From assembly GCA_902500785.1 (NCBI GenBank), contig CABVRW010000017.1, positions 1 to 63,302 of the forward strand: DNA of 63,302 nt, read 5' to 3'. This DNA is from an uncultured Nitrospira sp. GTDB lineage: Bacteria; Nitrospirota; Nitrospiria; Nitrospirales; Nitrospiraceae. Every line of letters begins with the position of its first letter. Position 1 is the stretch's first letter. A program made the position numbers and the translations under genes. This document shows, one piece after another, positions 54,661 through 62,133 of the stretch. Below the pieces are notes generated by a model. It saw nothing but the letters and a program-made list of their open reading frames with translations. It had not been told where the DNA came from and made no database searches.

Positions 54661-55812
54661 ATGAAGAACCGGAATCAGGTGGTCCTCGCCATCTCCGCCT
54701 GTTTGTTTCTCATCGTCACGGTGATGGAATGGATGTTCCCATTGAACGTGGTGGGCGCATTCGGTTTTGTCTTGCCGATCTTACTGGTGGCCACCGTCCG
54801 AAATCGACCGCTCATGGTCTTGACGCTGGCCCTGTGCGTGCTGGTGACGTTTATCGGTCTCTTCCAGCCGGGAAAGAAAAAAGATCGATTCACGGCCGTC
54901 GTGGTGAATCGTATCATGGTGGTCTGTGTGCTGGCGGGGGTGGCGTATATCGGTGTGACCTGGGAGGATCGTAAAGCTCGTGAAGAGGCAGCGAGAGCCG
55001 CTCTGGCCACCCAAACGGAGCACCTGCTGCGGGCGAATACGCAGTTGGTCGAGGTCAAAGACAAGCTGGCGCGATCGGAACGGTTGGCCGCCGTGGGGCA
55101 ACTGGTGGCATCGGTGGCGCACGAGGTCGGAACGCCCTTACATTCGATTGCGTGGCATGTGGAAGCGCTGGCGGAGGAGCCGGGTGTCACCGCCGCCATG
55201 CATAAACGGATCGGTATCATCGATGAACAGTTGAATCGTGTGGTGCGGATCATTCAAGATCTCTTGTCATCGACCAGGCAACGGAAGCCTGAGCCGACAT
55301 GGTACCCCGCCGAACGCCTGATCGAGCCGGTTGTGGCGTTGATGGAACCGGGATACCACGCGAAAGGCGTGACGCTTCAGGCCACGGTAGCCCCGGCGCT
55401 GCTGGTGTGGGCAGACGCTGAAAAGATCCATCAAGTGTTAGTGAATCTTCTGACCAATGCGCTGGCGGCCACCGCGGCGAGAGGGCATGTGACGGTGACA
55501 GTGACACTGCGTCAGGCCTCTCCGGAGGAGATGGAGAGTGCGTCTTGCACAGGTCGGTCCGATCTCGGGACGGTGGTCACGATGGTGGTGGGAGACTCGG
55601 GATGTGGGATGCCCCAGGAAGATGTGGATCGAGCCTTCCAGCCGTTTTTTACGACGAAGGCTATCGGTAAGGGGACCGGGTTGGGGTTGTTTCTGAGCCG
55701 CGAGGCCGTGTCGGCGCACGGCGGCCGTTTGACGCTTCAGAGTGAAGTCGGAATAGGCACGACGGTGACCGTGGTGCTCCCTGGGTTGCAGGCAGACTCG
55801 GCCGCGATATAG
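54661..55812 (+). CDS. Membrane sensor histidine kinase
   Basis: A 383-residue kinase with about three or four N-terminal membrane helices (about 7-100), a coiled coil (about 105-142) and the kinase core: His154 in ASVAHEVGTPLHSIAWH, then NLLTNALAATAARG and GTGLGLFLSREAV in the ATP-binding part. Its sensor is compact, with little outside the membrane. The sigma-54 regulator starts 14 bp after its stop, so the two are a two-component pair. Sensed signal unknown. Confidence 0.88.
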   Translation: MKNRNQVVLAISACLFLIVTVMEWMFPLNVVGAFGFVLPILLVATVRNRPLMVLTLALCVLVTFIGLFQPGKKKDRFTAVVVNRIMVVCVLAGVAYIGVTWEDRKAREEAARAALATQTEHLLRANTQLVEVKDKLARSERLAAVGQLVASVAHEVGTPLHSIAWHVEALAEEPGVTAAMHKRIGIIDEQLNRVVRIIQDLLSSTRQRKPEPTWYPAERLIEPVVALMEPGYHAKGVTLQATVAPALLVWADAEKIHQVLVNLLTNALAATAARGHVTVTVTLRQASPEEMESASCTGRSDLGTVVTMVVGDSGCGMPQEDVDRAFQPFFTTKAIGKGTGLGLFLSREAVSAHGGRLTLQSEVGIGTTVTVVLPGLQADSAAI

Positions 55813-55825
55813 GAGAGGGAGGCAC

Positions 55826-57220
55826 ATGAGCCAGGCGAAACTATTCGTGGTGGATGATGACGAGGCCGCGCGCACCCTGCTGGCGGAAGCGTTGGTGATG
55901 GAAGGGTATGAAGTCGAGGCATTCTCCAGCGGCCAGGCCGCGGTGGAACGCGGCAAACAATCGCGCGCCGATGTGGTCTTGACCGATATCCGGATGGAAC
56001 AGGGCGACGGGTTTCTCGTGCTGAAGGAATTCAAGCGGTTCAGCCCGGAGACCTCGATCGTGTTGCTGACGGCATTCGGATCTCTGGAGGGCGCGATCGA
56101 AGCGATCAAACAAGGGGCCTACGACTATTTGGCGAAGCCGTTCAAAAAAGAAGATATCCGGCTCGTCGTCCAACGCAGCTTGGAACATTGTCGGTTGGTT
56201 CGGGAGAATGCCCGCTTTCGTGACGATGCGCGCACACGCGAACCTTGGTCTCAGTTGGTCGGCAGCAGCCCGGCGATGTTGGAAGTCTATAAGCTGGTGG
56301 CCCGGGTTTCCGAGGGGCGGAGCACGGTGCTGATCGAAGGGGAGAGCGGAACGGGAAAAGAGCTGATTGCGCGGGCCGTGCATTTAAACAGTCCGCGGCG
56401 CGACAAACCGTTCATTCCCGTCAACTGCGGCGCATTACCCGATCATCTGCTTGAGTCGGAAATGTTCGGCTATGAGAAGGGCGCCTTTACGGGAGCCGTG
56501 GGGGCGAAAGCGGGACTGTTCGAGGCCGCCAATGGGGGGACCTTGTTTCTCGATGAGATCGGCGATCTCGGCCAGTCACTCCAGGTGAAGCTCTTGCGGG
56601 TGATGCAGGAGCAAGAGGTGCGACGTGTCGGCAGTACCTCCTCGGTGAAGGTCGATGTGCGAATCATTGCCGCCACCAATCGCGATCTGGCCACACTGGT
56701 CAAGGAGAGCAAGTTCCGCGACGACTTGTACTATCGTCTCAACGTGGTGCGGATTGCCCTTCCGTCACTGGCCGAGCGACGTGAGGACATTACGATGCTC
56801 GCACATCATTTCTTGCAAAAATACGCCAAGCAATCGTTGCACGTGAGGGGATTTTTGCCGGAAACAATGGCGCTGCTCAAGCGTTATCACTGGCCGGGGA
56901 ACGTCCGTGAACTGGAAAATGCCGTGGAACGGGCGGTCTCGCTCAGCCACGGCCCGCTCTTGCTACCCGACGATCTTCCGGAGTCGATCAGGGGTGGGTC
57001 GGATTCGGCAGAGACGCTCAAGGGAGTCTCGGCCGGCGCGGATCAGGACGCGCTGTTGACCTTAGATGAGGTCGAGAAGCGGCATCTGGCCCGTGTGCTC
57101 AAAGAGACGCGGGGCAACAAGGTCAAGGCAGCGAAGATACTGGGAATCGATCGGCGTACGTTGTATCGGATGGCGGAGCGGTTCGGGTTGGATTTCGGCG
57201 AGGAGACCGAGGAAAAGTAG
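55826..57220 (+). CDS. Sigma-54-dependent response regulator
   Basis: A 464-residue NtrC-like regulator: receiver with acceptor Asp54 (VVLTDIRMEQGDG), AAA+ ATPase with Walker A GESGTGKE and an intact sigma-54 contact loop GAFTGAVGAKAG, and a C-terminal Fis-type helix-turn-helix (about 420-460; GNKVKAAKILGIDRRTLYRM). It activates sigma-54 promoters. It is paired with the kinase immediately upstream. In contrast to the NtrX-like protein at 22035, its GAFTGA is canonical. Confidence 0.92.
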   Translation: MSQAKLFVVDDDEAARTLLAEALVMEGYEVEAFSSGQAAVERGKQSRADVVLTDIRMEQGDGFLVLKEFKRFSPETSIVLLTAFGSLEGAIEAIKQGAYDYLAKPFKKEDIRLVVQRSLEHCRLVRENARFRDDARTREPWSQLVGSSPAMLEVYKLVARVSEGRSTVLIEGESGTGKELIARAVHLNSPRRDKPFIPVNCGALPDHLLESEMFGYEKGAFTGAVGAKAGLFEAANGGTLFLDEIGDLGQSLQVKLLRVMQEQEVRRVGSTSSVKVDVRIIAATNRDLATLVKESKFRDDLYYRLNVVRIALPSLAERREDITMLAHHFLQKYAKQSLHVRGFLPETMALLKRYHWPGNVRELENAVERAVSLSHGPLLLPDDLPESIRGGSDSAETLKGVSAGADQDALLTLDEVEKRHLARVLKETRGNKVKAAKILGIDRRTLYRMAERFGLDFGEETEEK

Positions 57221-57227
57221 ATCGGCC

Positions 57228-57674
57228 CTACAATAATCGAAGCGCGTTCTTGATGAGGCGAATCTCATTCGCGGCACTCTGCGGCAGGGGCGTCTCCGCA
57301 TCCTCCCATGAGTCGAAGAGCCCGTCCTTCCCGCGATGAAACACCTGCAGGCGTACCCGCGCAGTCTGGTCGTCTTGCGGGACCACCCGTGCCTCCACCC
57401 GGCTCTTGCCTACGCCGAATCTCCAGCGCAACAGTCCGTTCCATGGGCTCCTGATTTCCTGCCGCATTCCGGTCGTGATATTGCCGGCATCATCCTGCTC
57501 GACCGTATAGCCTCCTTGCGTCAGGACATCGGCCAGCGCCGTTCTGACCTGCTCGGCGGGAACCGGGAGTGTCACCTCCATCACATCGGGCTCAGGAGCG
57601 GGTGGGCCTCCCGCGCACCCAGTGCCCGCTGTGAGGACGACCACGGCTATGATACGCGCGAGACACGCGTTCAT
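57228..57674 (-). CDS. Hypothetical lipoprotein
   Basis: A 148-residue protein with a signal ending LTAGTGC (Cys20), a weak lipobox, and a mature domain with EVTLPVPAEQVRTALADVLT then VEQDDAGNITTG and a beta-rich C-terminus. The pattern of a strand, a long helix and strands is typical of NlpC-like or BamC-like envelope lipoproteins, but I cannot name a family. It overlaps the stop of the small ligand-binding gene by four bases, so they are co-translated. It converges with the sigma-54 regulator gene 7 bp away. Confidence 0.68.
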   Translation of the reverse strand: MNACLARIIAVVVLTAGTGCAGGPPAPEPDVMEVTLPVPAEQVRTALADVLTQGGYTVEQDDAGNITTGMRQEIRSPWNGLLRWRFGVGKSRVEARVVPQDDQTARVRLQVFHRGKDGLFDSWEDAETPLPQSAANEIRLIKNALRLL

Positions 57675-57925
57675 TTTGGCTTGCCTTCCTGAAGGCGATA
57701 GACCAGATGGGTGTCCGTCTGATCGACACCGGGAATGGCATGAATCTTTGCGAGCACGAGTTGGGTCAACGCGTCCTGATGGGGAATTTCGACGATCGTG
57801 AAGATGTCCGGCTTTCCCCAGCAGGGATCGATTTGTTTGATTTCCTTAATGTCCCCCAGGGCCTTCACGACATCGGCGGTTTGGCCGGGATGAACGGTGA
57901 TCAACACGTAGGCTCGGTCGGACAT
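57671..57925 (-). CDS. Stand-alone Lrp/AsnC ligand-binding (RAM) domain protein
   Basis: An 84-residue protein consisting only of the RAM/ACT-like ligand-binding domain of Lrp/AsnC regulators, without a DNA-binding domain. MSDRAYVLITVHPGQTADVV, KEIKQIDPCWGKPDIFTIVE and IHAIPGVDQTDTHLVY are typical. Stand-alone copies form rings and may bind amino acids. GGGAG supports ATG 57925. The downstream lipoprotein gene overlaps by four bases. Confidence 0.82.
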   Translation of the reverse strand: MSDRAYVLITVHPGQTADVVKALGDIKEIKQIDPCWGKPDIFTIVEIPHQDALTQLVLAKIHAIPGVDQTDTHLVYRLQEGKPK

Positions 57926-58056: not shown

Positions 58057-59769
58057 CTACTTCGGTGCCACGATGACTTCCACGCGATACACGTCGCTGA
58101 CGGTTGACAGGTCGACCTCCAGCCCGCGAGGGTTTCCCACTCGGCCGTCAGGATCGTAGATAAAGCATAACAGGGTGGCTCCGTGTGGGCGCGTGGAATA
58201 GCGGGCGCTGTCTGCCGTGACTTGCTCGGCGATATCTCTGGTGGTCAACCCTGAACGGGTTTGTTTGACGACGACCACCGTTTTGTCCCAGTCGAGAAGA
58301 TAGCTGGTCCGATGGGCGCCGTCGGCGTATACCGGGGCCCACTCTTCTGTTCCAACCTCATCGAATTGCAAGCGGAGGAGGGCGTAGAACAGGTCCTGCA
58401 GATCCTGCTCATCGGTGATTTCCAGCGTCGGTCGATATTCCTTTCGCAAACGAAGTTGTCGCGCCACCAGGTGGAATCTGGCACACATTCTCCGGAGGAT
58501 CTCGAGCGTTGTGGTCTCTGATTGGCTGCTATTCATGCTCGAATTCCTGGGTGCTGCGAGCACCGTCGCCGTTGTTGGTGCTGTGACGACGGGTGCGACG
58601 GGCGGATCTGGTTGGGACTCCATGCCGGCAGCGGACGGAAGAGGTGCTTCCGGGATAGACCGCGTAGTTGGAATCTCGCGAGGGCCGGGGAGATCGTTGT
58701 GCTGCTGTTTTTCCTCTGCAGGCGCGGGTATGACTGGAATCGGCGCAAGTGCAATGGTGGTGGCTAGGGCCGGTGTGGGCGCCGGCGCGTCGATCGAATT
58801 CGAAGTCGGTTGGACTGGTGGAGGCGGCTCAATGGGAGACGCGGGTATATTTGCAGGCCTCGGAGTCACTCTCGGTAGAGGAGGGATGGTTCCCGATGGA
58901 ACGGGTGTCCGTAGTGGTGCCGTTGTCGGACTTGCGGCTGTGGTGACCACCGGACGCGCTGTCAGGTCCGGCAGTGATGCGGTATTTGTGGATGGAGGGG
59001 GGAGAGCAGGTTCTGCGGGCAACGAGGGTGTTGGACTCTGAAGTGGCACGATTTTCTCAACCGCGACCACGGCGGCATTAGCCATCACGGGGCTCAGCGG
59101 AAGGGATGACGGTGGCTGTGGCGCGCGCTGGATTGATGTTTCGCGAATCGGTTGAGGTGCAGTCTCCGGCGCAGGCGGCATTGGGGCTGTCGTCGCGGCG
59201 ACTGGTGTCGTCAGGACGATCGGAGCCATGGCCTGTGTGATCTGGCTGAGGTTCGTCGTCATTGCTACCGAGACGGTCATCGGTGTGCTGGTCATGGTCA
59301 CAGCGGCGAGGGGGGGGGCGTTCTGAGCGTTGGGGCGTGCGATTGGATCGGAAGGCTGGATCGGGGAAACCGGCTTTAGCATGGAGCGATTCGGAGTCGT
59401 TGATGGCGGCGCAGGTGGTTCGTTTGGTTTGAGGCCTAGGAGGTCGGCTTTCTGATTCTCCAGGGCGACAATCAAGTCCTTGACCAGTGTCGTGCTCTGT
59501 GCGGACTCCGTGCGACTGCCGATTCGGAGCTTGTGATTCTTATGCGCTTGATATTCCGGTGACTTTTCGCCGAACAGCCGCCGAATCGTTTCACGAAAAG
59601 AGAGCTCGGTTCTCGCTCGGACCGCTTCACGGTAGGGGAATCCATCCTGGCTGAGGTCGTCGATTTGTGTGCTCAGTTCGCGCAGCGTGGTGATGCCGCG
59701 GTTGAGTTCTTCTGCGGGATTCGGTTTCGATCGACTGCGCTGCGGGTCGCTGGCTTTTGCTCGTGCCAT
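58057..59769 (-). CDS. Large protein with degenerate DpnII/MboI-type PD-(D/E)XK domain
   Basis: A 570-residue protein in three parts. The N-terminal 20-110 is a helical domain (YREAVRARTELSFRETIRRL, FGEKSPEYQAHK). Residues about 115-415 are a low-complexity Pro/Ala/Thr/Val-rich linker, likely disordered. Residues about 422-570 match the REase_DpnII-MboI fold: ARFHLVARQLRLRKEYRPTL, TDEQDLQDLFYALLRLQFDE, EEWAPVYADG, ATLLCFIYDPDGRV and GNPRGLEVDLS. The core D...ExK reads RTSYLL ... VVVVKQTR, so the Asp is Ser489 and the Glu is Val500, with Lys502 kept. Nuclease activity is unlikely. ATG 59769 has a weak ribosome site. Confidence 0.75.
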   Translation of the reverse strand: MARAKASDPQRSRSKPNPAEELNRGITTLRELSTQIDDLSQDGFPYREAVRARTELSFRETIRRLFGEKSPEYQAHKNHKLRIGSRTESAQSTTLVKDLIVALENQKADLLGLKPNEPPAPPSTTPNRSMLKPVSPIQPSDPIARPNAQNAPPLAAVTMTSTPMTVSVAMTTNLSQITQAMAPIVLTTPVAATTAPMPPAPETAPQPIRETSIQRAPQPPSSLPLSPVMANAAVVAVEKIVPLQSPTPSLPAEPALPPPSTNTASLPDLTARPVVTTAASPTTAPLRTPVPSGTIPPLPRVTPRPANIPASPIEPPPPVQPTSNSIDAPAPTPALATTIALAPIPVIPAPAEEKQQHNDLPGPREIPTTRSIPEAPLPSAAGMESQPDPPVAPVVTAPTTATVLAAPRNSSMNSSQSETTTLEILRRMCARFHLVARQLRLRKEYRPTLEITDEQDLQDLFYALLRLQFDEVGTEEWAPVYADGAHRTSYLLDWDKTVVVVKQTRSGLTTRDIAEQVTADSARYSTRPHGATLLCFIYDPDGRVGNPRGLEVDLSTVSDVYRVEVIVAPK

Positions 59770-59877
59770 GTGTCCGGTACCCCTGTGGAGAAAGTCTATC
59801 CGAGAGGATGTTGCCTGACAAGAAATCCCTCGCTTGCGTCCGTTAGGCAACGAGAGAGACGCAGGTAGTGAGGGTCT

Positions 59878-60416: not shown

Positions 60417-61259
60417 TTAGAAGGGACGCTGTTGCTCCTTCAGCCGTTCGTATTCACGTTGTTCGCAACTGCCTGGTTTGGGACGTAAGGATTCAGGGAC
60501 TTCTGCGAAGCGCACGGTGCAATAGCGCTGGGCCTGGCGCCGCCGATCGAGGTCTTGTTGTTCTTCGAGTTGTTGGAGGCGGACCGTGAGGTCGATAGTC
60601 GGAAGATCCTTGCCTGTCGGTGTGGCCTGTCGCGGTGTTAGTGAGTTGTCCTCGCTAGAGCGTGGATGTGGGCCATTCAATCGCCAGCGCGTCAACACAT
60701 CGTCCTGATTGAACACAATGGTCAAGCCGAATTGAGAGTAATCCCAGATCAGTTCTCCCTGATCGGGACGCGCCCAGATAGATCGGGGGAGGCCGTATCG
60801 GTTCCAGATCTCGTCACGCAGCATGCCGACGCGCGGCGTCAGATTTCGGATCGCCGTGATTTGTGCCACGATCGGGGAAATGTCTTTCTGCGTACCGGGA
60901 TTGGTGCGTCTGGTGAGCGATTCCAGGGTGGGGCGAGGCACGCGCAGCAATCGCCACACCGTGACGAGTCCTTGCGCGCAGTCGGCGGGACGCAAGTCTT
61001 CGAAAATCATTTGTGTGTCCATCGGAAATCCTCCGATTTCCTGGGTACGTGTGAAGTTCTTGACCTCTTGGACGGCGGCGATGTAGGCACGTTGACGTCC
61101 CTCTTCTACGTTCGGGGCGCAAGAAGATCGTCCGGTAAAAAATACCTCGTCGCCAAAGTGAAACAGCGCTTGCTCTGTCCAAAATGGGCGATTCTCAGCG
61201 GCGCTTACCATTGAGGCCGCGATGAGGCTCAGGAGCGCGGCGGCAAGATAATGGACCAT
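60417..61259 (-). CDS. Exported hypothetical protein
   Basis: A 280-residue protein with a signal peptide (about 1-20, VHYLAAALLSLIAASMVSA). The mature part has FFTGRSSCAPNVEEGRQRAYI and a central LRDEIWNRYGLPRSIWARPD, resembling small envelope proteins with a SmpA/BamE-like segment (DEIWNRYGLP). The C-terminus is rich in Arg, Glu and Gln and has two Cys. ATG 61259 is chosen because the longer frame lacks a signal. Function unknown. Confidence 0.66.
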   Translation of the reverse strand: MVHYLAAALLSLIAASMVSAAENRPFWTEQALFHFGDEVFFTGRSSCAPNVEEGRQRAYIAAVQEVKNFTRTQEIGGFPMDTQMIFEDLRPADCAQGLVTVWRLLRVPRPTLESLTRRTNPGTQKDISPIVAQITAIRNLTPRVGMLRDEIWNRYGLPRSIWARPDQGELIWDYSQFGLTIVFNQDDVLTRWRLNGPHPRSSEDNSLTPRQATPTGKDLPTIDLTVRLQQLEEQQDLDRRRQAQRYCTVRFAEVPESLRPKPGSCEQREYERLKEQQRPF

Positions 61260-61443
61260 AGGGGTGCAAGGCGAACGCCCATTGTGGAACGGCAGTGTTG
61301 AGTATAGCGCGCGGGTTGAAAAAATCGATAAAAGAGCGAGTTTGCGCGTTGGAGGAGCGGAAGGGGATCCTATCGGGTGTGCCCCCAGGGGCAGGAGCAA
61401 ACCGTAGGTACAAGGATTTGTGGACGGATCGGCAGGGAGATGA

Positions 61444-62133
61444 CTAGTAATTCGTCGAGCTGGTTGAACTATCTCTACTGGATGCGGCCGGGGTAGCCAG
61501 GGGCTTAGAAGAGGTTACTTCGCTGGTCATGAGCCCGGACCCCGGTGGGCAAATGTTTTCCGGCGCGACGGCACCAGGGTTGCGTATGCCCCAGGCCGTT
61601 GCGAGGGCATGGCAGGTCAGGAGGCTGATGCCTTCTTCGATATTGCCGAACCGTTCAGTCGATTGAGCCTTGCCGCTCCATTCAATTTCGCCGGTATTGA
61701 CATCGACGGCCCTGAGGGCAATTGTGGCGGAATAGACCCGTTGGCTGTGAGGGAAGCCGGTACTCCAATCGAGCGCCTCCCAGGTTCCTATCTCGGCATT
61801 GCTAAACACCACCAGCCGCGCGCCTACGAGTTTGGCCATTCGCAGCACGTCTGTTTCAAGGTACTGATAGCCGGTGAGACTTACTTTCTGGTCAGCCGCC
61901 GCCTGCAGCACTTTCGTCTGGTCCACGACGAGAATGCCCTTTTTGAGCAACCAGGTACTCGCACTCTGGACCGTGTCGGGACGACCACCCCAGACAACGG
62001 CGCGAGTGTATGGGGCGGGGAGTTTTGAGTGGAAGCCATCCGTCGTCGGGGTTTCGACAAACGCATACCCATGGCAACCGGCTGTTGCCAGGAAGAGTAT
62101 CGACAAATACAGGAACAGATTCGCCGGCTTCAT
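61444..62133 (-). CDS. Hypothetical lipoprotein
   Basis: A 229-residue lipoprotein: signal ending LFLATAGC (Cys20) and a mature domain with DTVQSASTWLLKKGILVVDQ, DVLRMAKLVGARLVVFSNAE and TIALRAVDVNTGEIEWSGKA. This order, a strand-helix pattern then a beta hairpin with NTGEIEWSG, is like the CsgG/FlgO family of envelope proteins. The C-terminal 35 residues are Ser/Thr rich. It is the first of a minus-strand run. Family assignment is tentative. Confidence 0.68.
   Translation of the reverse strand: MKPANLFLYLSILFLATAGCHGYAFVETPTTDGFHSKLPAPYTRAVVWGGRPDTVQSASTWLLKKGILVVDQTKVLQAAADQKVSLTGYQYLETDVLRMAKLVGARLVVFSNAEIGTWEALDWSTGFPHSQRVYSATIALRAVDVNTGEIEWSGKAQSTERFGNIEEGISLLTCHALATAWGIRNPGAVAPENICPPGSGLMTSEVTSSKPLATPAASSRDSSTSSTNY

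Follow-up and report, generated by a model that had tools for sequence, protein, structure and literature searches.

Restriction-endonuclease (REase) folds that have lost their catalytic function and taken on new jobs are already known, and cases in which the steps of that transition can be seen are few. For example, the N-terminal domain of RPB5 and domain 3 of RecC are dead REase folds with a structural or DNA-handling role; the RPB5 domain has been described as acting in protein–protein contacts, and the two provide precedents for either a nucleic-acid or a protein outcome (PMC1185551). Such pseudonucleases are the known kind to which the protein described here belongs, although RPB5 and RecC have no detectable sequence kinship to it and are both subunits of known complexes. 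The only solved sequence relative with a meaningful match is EcbAgaN (bAgaN; PDB 23wq; PADLOC Aga_Helical-REase), a long-B Argonaute-associated DNase with a related C-terminal domain (E 3.9e-5), whose DNase activity requires a D-EVK motif made up of D298, E309 and K311 (PMC10620215). The nearest intact kin of the C-terminal domain (~50% identity) are compact two-domain proteins of the Pfam family PF18742 (REase_DpnII-MboI), including one of 265 aa from Nitrospira defluvii (L003). No paper found in the literature searched names PF18742, and the databases searched gave the gene no name other than its domain match.

The window analysed here, a 63,302-nucleotide stretch of contig CABVRW010000017.1 from an uncultured Nitrospira sp., encodes on its reverse strand a retired PF18742 protein of 570 aa plus stop (58057..59769, (-); ATG at 59769), in which the open reading frame, a profile search and AlphaFold2 delineate a helical domain, a disordered linker and a pseudonuclease domain. 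The N-terminal domain with its basic N-terminal tail spans residues 1–117 (59419..59769, (-)) and was delimited by AlphaFold2, which placed four helices at residues 18–39, 47–66, 71–75 and 86–110 (pLDDT ~90), as the original prediction of a helical domain had anticipated, and by a weak, collinear match to PDC-S35. Resemblance of this domain to the FliS/NarX-like four-helix proteins was considered, but the Z scores of these matches (~9–10) are ones that common bundles also reach, and the matches were set aside. The linker, residues 118–410 (58540..59418, (-)), is rich in Pro, Ala, Thr, Ser and Val and fast-evolving, and its pLDDT is mostly <50 over a length of ~290 residues, close to the 'about 300' first estimated. 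The C-terminal domain occupies residues 411–570 (58060..58539, (-)) and is a catalytically degenerate DpnII/MboI-type PD-(D/E)XK domain; residues 424–570 matched PF18742 with E 2e-48 and 164 bits against a curated cut-off of 27, which makes the protein a family member by homology and upholds the assignment made from the letters, while NCBIfam returned no match to the protein.

Modelled alone, the C-terminal domain reached a pLDDT of 88.6 and a pTM of 0.85, and the AlphaFold2 models contained the alpha-beta-beta-beta-alpha-beta core of the PD-(D/E)XK fold with its motif strands (helix 454–468, strands 473–477, 487–492 and 497–503, helix 510–525 and strand 532–538), the same secondary structure as PF18742. 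Its top structural neighbours were mostly of REase fold (BstYI Z 8.2, CdiA-CT 7.9, BglII 7.5, BamHI 6.7), with RNA-polymerase RPB5-type chains further down the list. BstYI, BglII and BamHI align over the whole domain (Z 6.7–8.2), but they are active sequence-specific restriction enzymes with ~10% identity to it, and a Z near 8 may reflect a common arrangement. Neither model had a Foldseek match in the PDB at E<=0.001, so it is the sequence profile, together with the topology, that supports the fold assignment.

The catalytic columns were anchored on the intact relatives and on EcbAgaN, and they place Ser489 (58303..58305, (-)) where the catalytic Asp is expected, Val500 (58270..58272, (-)) where the Glu of the ExK motif is expected, and the retained catalytic Lys at Lys502 (58264..58266, (-)), which is kept in 94% of orthologs. 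These are exactly the residues and coordinates that had been proposed. The spacing of +11 and +2 is identical between EcbAgaN D298/E309/K311 and positions 489/500/502, and in the AlphaFold2 model Ser489 lies in strand 487–492 and V-x-K in strand 497–503, as expected of the fold. Of the active D...(D/E)xK motif the protein thus has the Lys (K502) but neither metal-ligand acid (S489, V500). EcbAgaN also resembles the window protein in having an unstructured link between two domains; it differs in that its D-EVK site cuts DNA, whereas the window protein has S-V-K and belongs to a genus in which no Piwi gene was found. The family PF18742 differs from the fused orthologs, which have a long linker and in each of which at least one catalytic acid is replaced (both in the window protein).

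The protein is widespread in its family. Every good genus genome (24 of 24) contained PF18742, and 102 of the 114 good genomes at family level encoded the protein; many of the genomes sampled are MAGs. Outside the family, only scattered PF18742 matches occurred in the phylum searched. Some of the family's small genomes lack the gene, and it is thus dispensable in them. Nitrospira defluvii and N. moscoviensis, which belong to a group of central importance to nitrogen cycling, are among the carriers. Both acids were kept in none of ~120 sampled fused orthologs, nor in any fused protein of the named genomes, those two species included. In contrast, D-E-K was found in 8/8 compact relatives tested, several of which lie beside defence genes, and in all compact proteins of the named genomes (Paraburkholderia, Achromobacter and others); among the rows first tabulated only two compact paralogs had it. 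The pooled sets gave 133 distinct rows, a few of which may be the same protein counted from two collections, and the six with D-E-K were every one compact. The original prediction of a retired nuclease is strongly supported by this survey, together with the purifying selection, fixed locus and conserved promoter described below.

The loss of the two acids appears to have been stepwise. A C-terminal-domain tree from which the catalytic columns had been left out split the compact from the fused proteins (98/95). In the main fused clade neither Asp nor Glu is found, while eight deep-branching genera and the second copies in a ninth retain Asp or Glu but never both; the deep genera show YEK, GER, DQK, DSR, DVI, DVK, DIK and DTR (D-V-K, D-I-K, D-S-R and D-T-R in the further genera sampled). 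All three stages can still be seen: intact relatives, deep orthologs half-disarmed at a shared locus, and a main clade that is fully disarmed. Under a model of irreversible loss, the best tree has three losses of D (2–4 across bootstraps) and five of E (4–7), while free parsimony required just three changes for each and the changes in E could include a regain; the exact number thus varies with the model, implying about three losses of Asp and four to seven of Glu if loss is irreversible. Repeated loss suggests that giving up cutting was, in each lineage, either tolerated or favoured, and that some other function of the domain was kept. The deep orthologs L080–L084 share the locus of the window gene and so are not merely stray paralogs, while synteny with the window locus was not found for L086, L092 and L094 in the sequence stretches examined.

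The degenerate C-terminal domain is under strong purifying selection. Nei–Gojobori omega was 0.05–0.14 in the N-terminal domain, 0.05–0.15 in the C-terminal domain and 0.42–0.72 in the linker, which behaves as a spacer; with omega at 0.05–0.15 in the folded domains and the frames open, neither the relaxed selection nor the broken frame of a pseudogene was seen. K502 has stayed fixed, as have many residues with no catalytic part, whereas the catalytic columns have become variable; the constrained non-catalytic set comprises R431, H433, R442, R446, D453/456/459, W477, P479, Q516, D520, the motif CFxYDPxGRxxxP and E551. R431, H433, R437, R442 and R446 make up a conserved basic helix, which, like Lys502, is common to the active relatives and may be structural.

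The gene also has a fixed setting. A conserved sigma70-type promoter, TTGTCA-N17-TAGACT (59793..59821, (-)), ends 23 bp before the ATG, and in 48 of the 70 orthologs, against 0.3% of shuffles, a promoter of the TTGYCA-N17-TAGACT type lay 11–24 bp ahead of the start codon, a proximity that implies a very short leader (a near-leaderless promoter). Synteny identified a stand-alone Lrp/AsnC ligand-binding (RAM) domain gene (57674..57919, (-)) as the constant downstream neighbour, and the order pseudonuclease, RAM, lipoprotein-like gene, convergent NtrC, HK and malQ is shared across the family, including several deep genera. Two conserved upstream genes (window 60417–61265 and 61444–62133, (-)) had no Pfam match at E 0.001, and the histidine kinase/NtrC-type sigma54 activator pair (window 54661–57220, (+)) is kept at the locus family-wide. 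Genomes without the pseudonuclease retain RAM and the lipoprotein/NtrC/HK/malQ block, and in the sister family RAM alone persists, so the neighbourhood is the older feature, and the gene either joined it or was lost from it. The constant position is for the same reason not evidence for joint function, and RAM, rejected as an obligate functional pair, is probably not an obligate partner.

Taken as a whole, the evidence makes it fairly probable that the protein is a domesticated, catalytically dead immune nuclease that now serves as a non-catalytic, two-module binding protein. Within this reading, the loss of cutting and the recruitment of the domain are well supported by the sequence comparisons, and we infer that what is bound is nucleic acid or protein; recruitment for binding or scaffolding, as originally predicted, can reasonably be proposed. 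The protein would no longer cut, and its C-terminal domain would act as a binding module whose old substrate groove most likely grips nucleic acid, a protein partner being the less likely alternative. Through the flexible linker this module would be tethered to the basic helical N-terminal domain, which with its tail may serve in anchoring or oligomerisation, so that the protein could bridge two things or recruit one to the other. A steady promoter at an unchanging locus would suit a housekeeping role over inducible killing. A more specific version is tentative: that early in the nitrite-oxidising/comammox Nitrospira family an immune nuclease became domesticated, was disarmed several times independently and is now a near-universal chromosomal DNA-bridging or regulatory protein. 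If true, the family would hold a natural series from toxic defence effector to housekeeping protein.

Whether the partner is nucleic acid or protein is where the most durable alternative enters, a possible though doubtful one in which the domain, in the manner of RPB5's inactive REase-fold domain, scaffolds or tethers proteins and makes no nucleic-acid contact. The RPB5-type chains among its structural neighbours, the protein–protein role of the RPB5 domain (PMC1185551) and the long linker are consistent with such a scaffold, as is the slightly acidic character of the domain (median net charge -3), which makes DNA binding not obvious, though the intact relatives are equally acidic. Against it, the kept basic helix (R437 included) and Lys502 fit a retained nucleic-acid groove, if they are not simply structural. 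Because these shared features persist, nucleic-acid binding is preferred here only slightly over a pure protein scaffold; net charge does not argue for DNA.

The immune connection rests on several relatives. The nearest annotated kin of the C-terminal domain in the defence library are the Aga_Helical-REase models; compact relatives adjoin PLD_Helicase, HmaC/DUF499-like and ThsB genes, and more distant relatives were found on conjugative plasmids. The N-terminal domain matched the N-terminus of PADLOC PDC-S35 weakly but collinearly (E 0.0054), and direct profile comparison (HHalign) with the compact N-terminal domains was likewise weak and was partly repaired through a bridging protein, L227, which matches PDC-S35 at E 5e-4. 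This 275-aa protein (L227:1577–2401, (-)) joins the same helical N-terminal domain (E 7.6e-15) to a Hypoth_Ymh (HEPN-type) domain, and its host is a family member without the pseudonuclease. Kinship with the PDC-S35-like N-terminal domains of the compact proteins is accordingly probable only, and an immune-effector origin of the whole protein is likely from these comparisons. The compact proteins differ in their intact D-E-K, their lack of a long linker and their scattered defence-type contexts, against one fixed locus for the window protein. A second PF18742 protein of Nitrospira defluvii (L089:2741–4426) is compact and has an intact D-E-K; a convergent gene next to it gave a weak TIR-effector match. 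In another Nitrospirota genome, a Piwi gene (class II pAgo match) overlaps an AgaN-like nuclease with an intact D-EVK (L230:15–2362, (+)).

This kinship to defence-type proteins, and an N-terminal domain that resembles that of PDC-S35 and in G169 is joined to a HEPN-type (Ymh) domain, would also fit a non-cutting role in immunity, as a sensor, decoy or scaffold that either cooperates with further defence proteins or damps intact paralogs via mixed dimers. We consider such a role unlikely, as the fixed vertical locus, near-universal presence and own conserved promoter are unlike defence islands, and an intact compact paralog occurs in only 2 of 29 genus genomes, so damping cannot be the general role. 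An Argonaute partner was likewise rejected: no Piwi domain or gene was found in the 29 genus genomes, so the gene does not adjoin an Argonaute as bAgaN does.

Less probable still is a nuclease with a rearranged site, in which Lys502 would work with Glu/Asp515 of the next helix and with another acid in place of Asp489. In some restriction enzymes of the Ecl18kI/PspGI type, an acid elsewhere stands in for the lost Glu, and in principle an acidic residue at 515 could do the same here, although the Asp is also gone. The 94% retention of K502, an acidic 515 (K+13; Glu in the window protein) in 46 of 52 fused rows and the invariance of D453/456/459/539 are in keeping with such a site. However, these acids are equally conserved in the D-E-K relatives and so are not compensating; EcbAgaN cuts although N, H and N occupy the positions of 453/456/459; and the other six fused rows have G, A, Q or K at 515. 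An alignment scan of the retired clade found no position at which an acid had become newly fixed, and column 489 ranks high in variability (87th percentile). The proviso in the original prediction that another acid might complete the site was thus addressed at the level of the alignment, where a compensating acid was rejected; position 515 is frequently acidic there without being invariant.

Local decay or a pseudogene in this one genome, where the catalytic residues have indeed been lost, is virtually ruled out by the ortholog survey and the selection test: intact orthologs had been named beforehand as its sign, and instead none of the ~120 sampled has both D and E, omega is low, the frames are open, and promoter and synteny are conserved.
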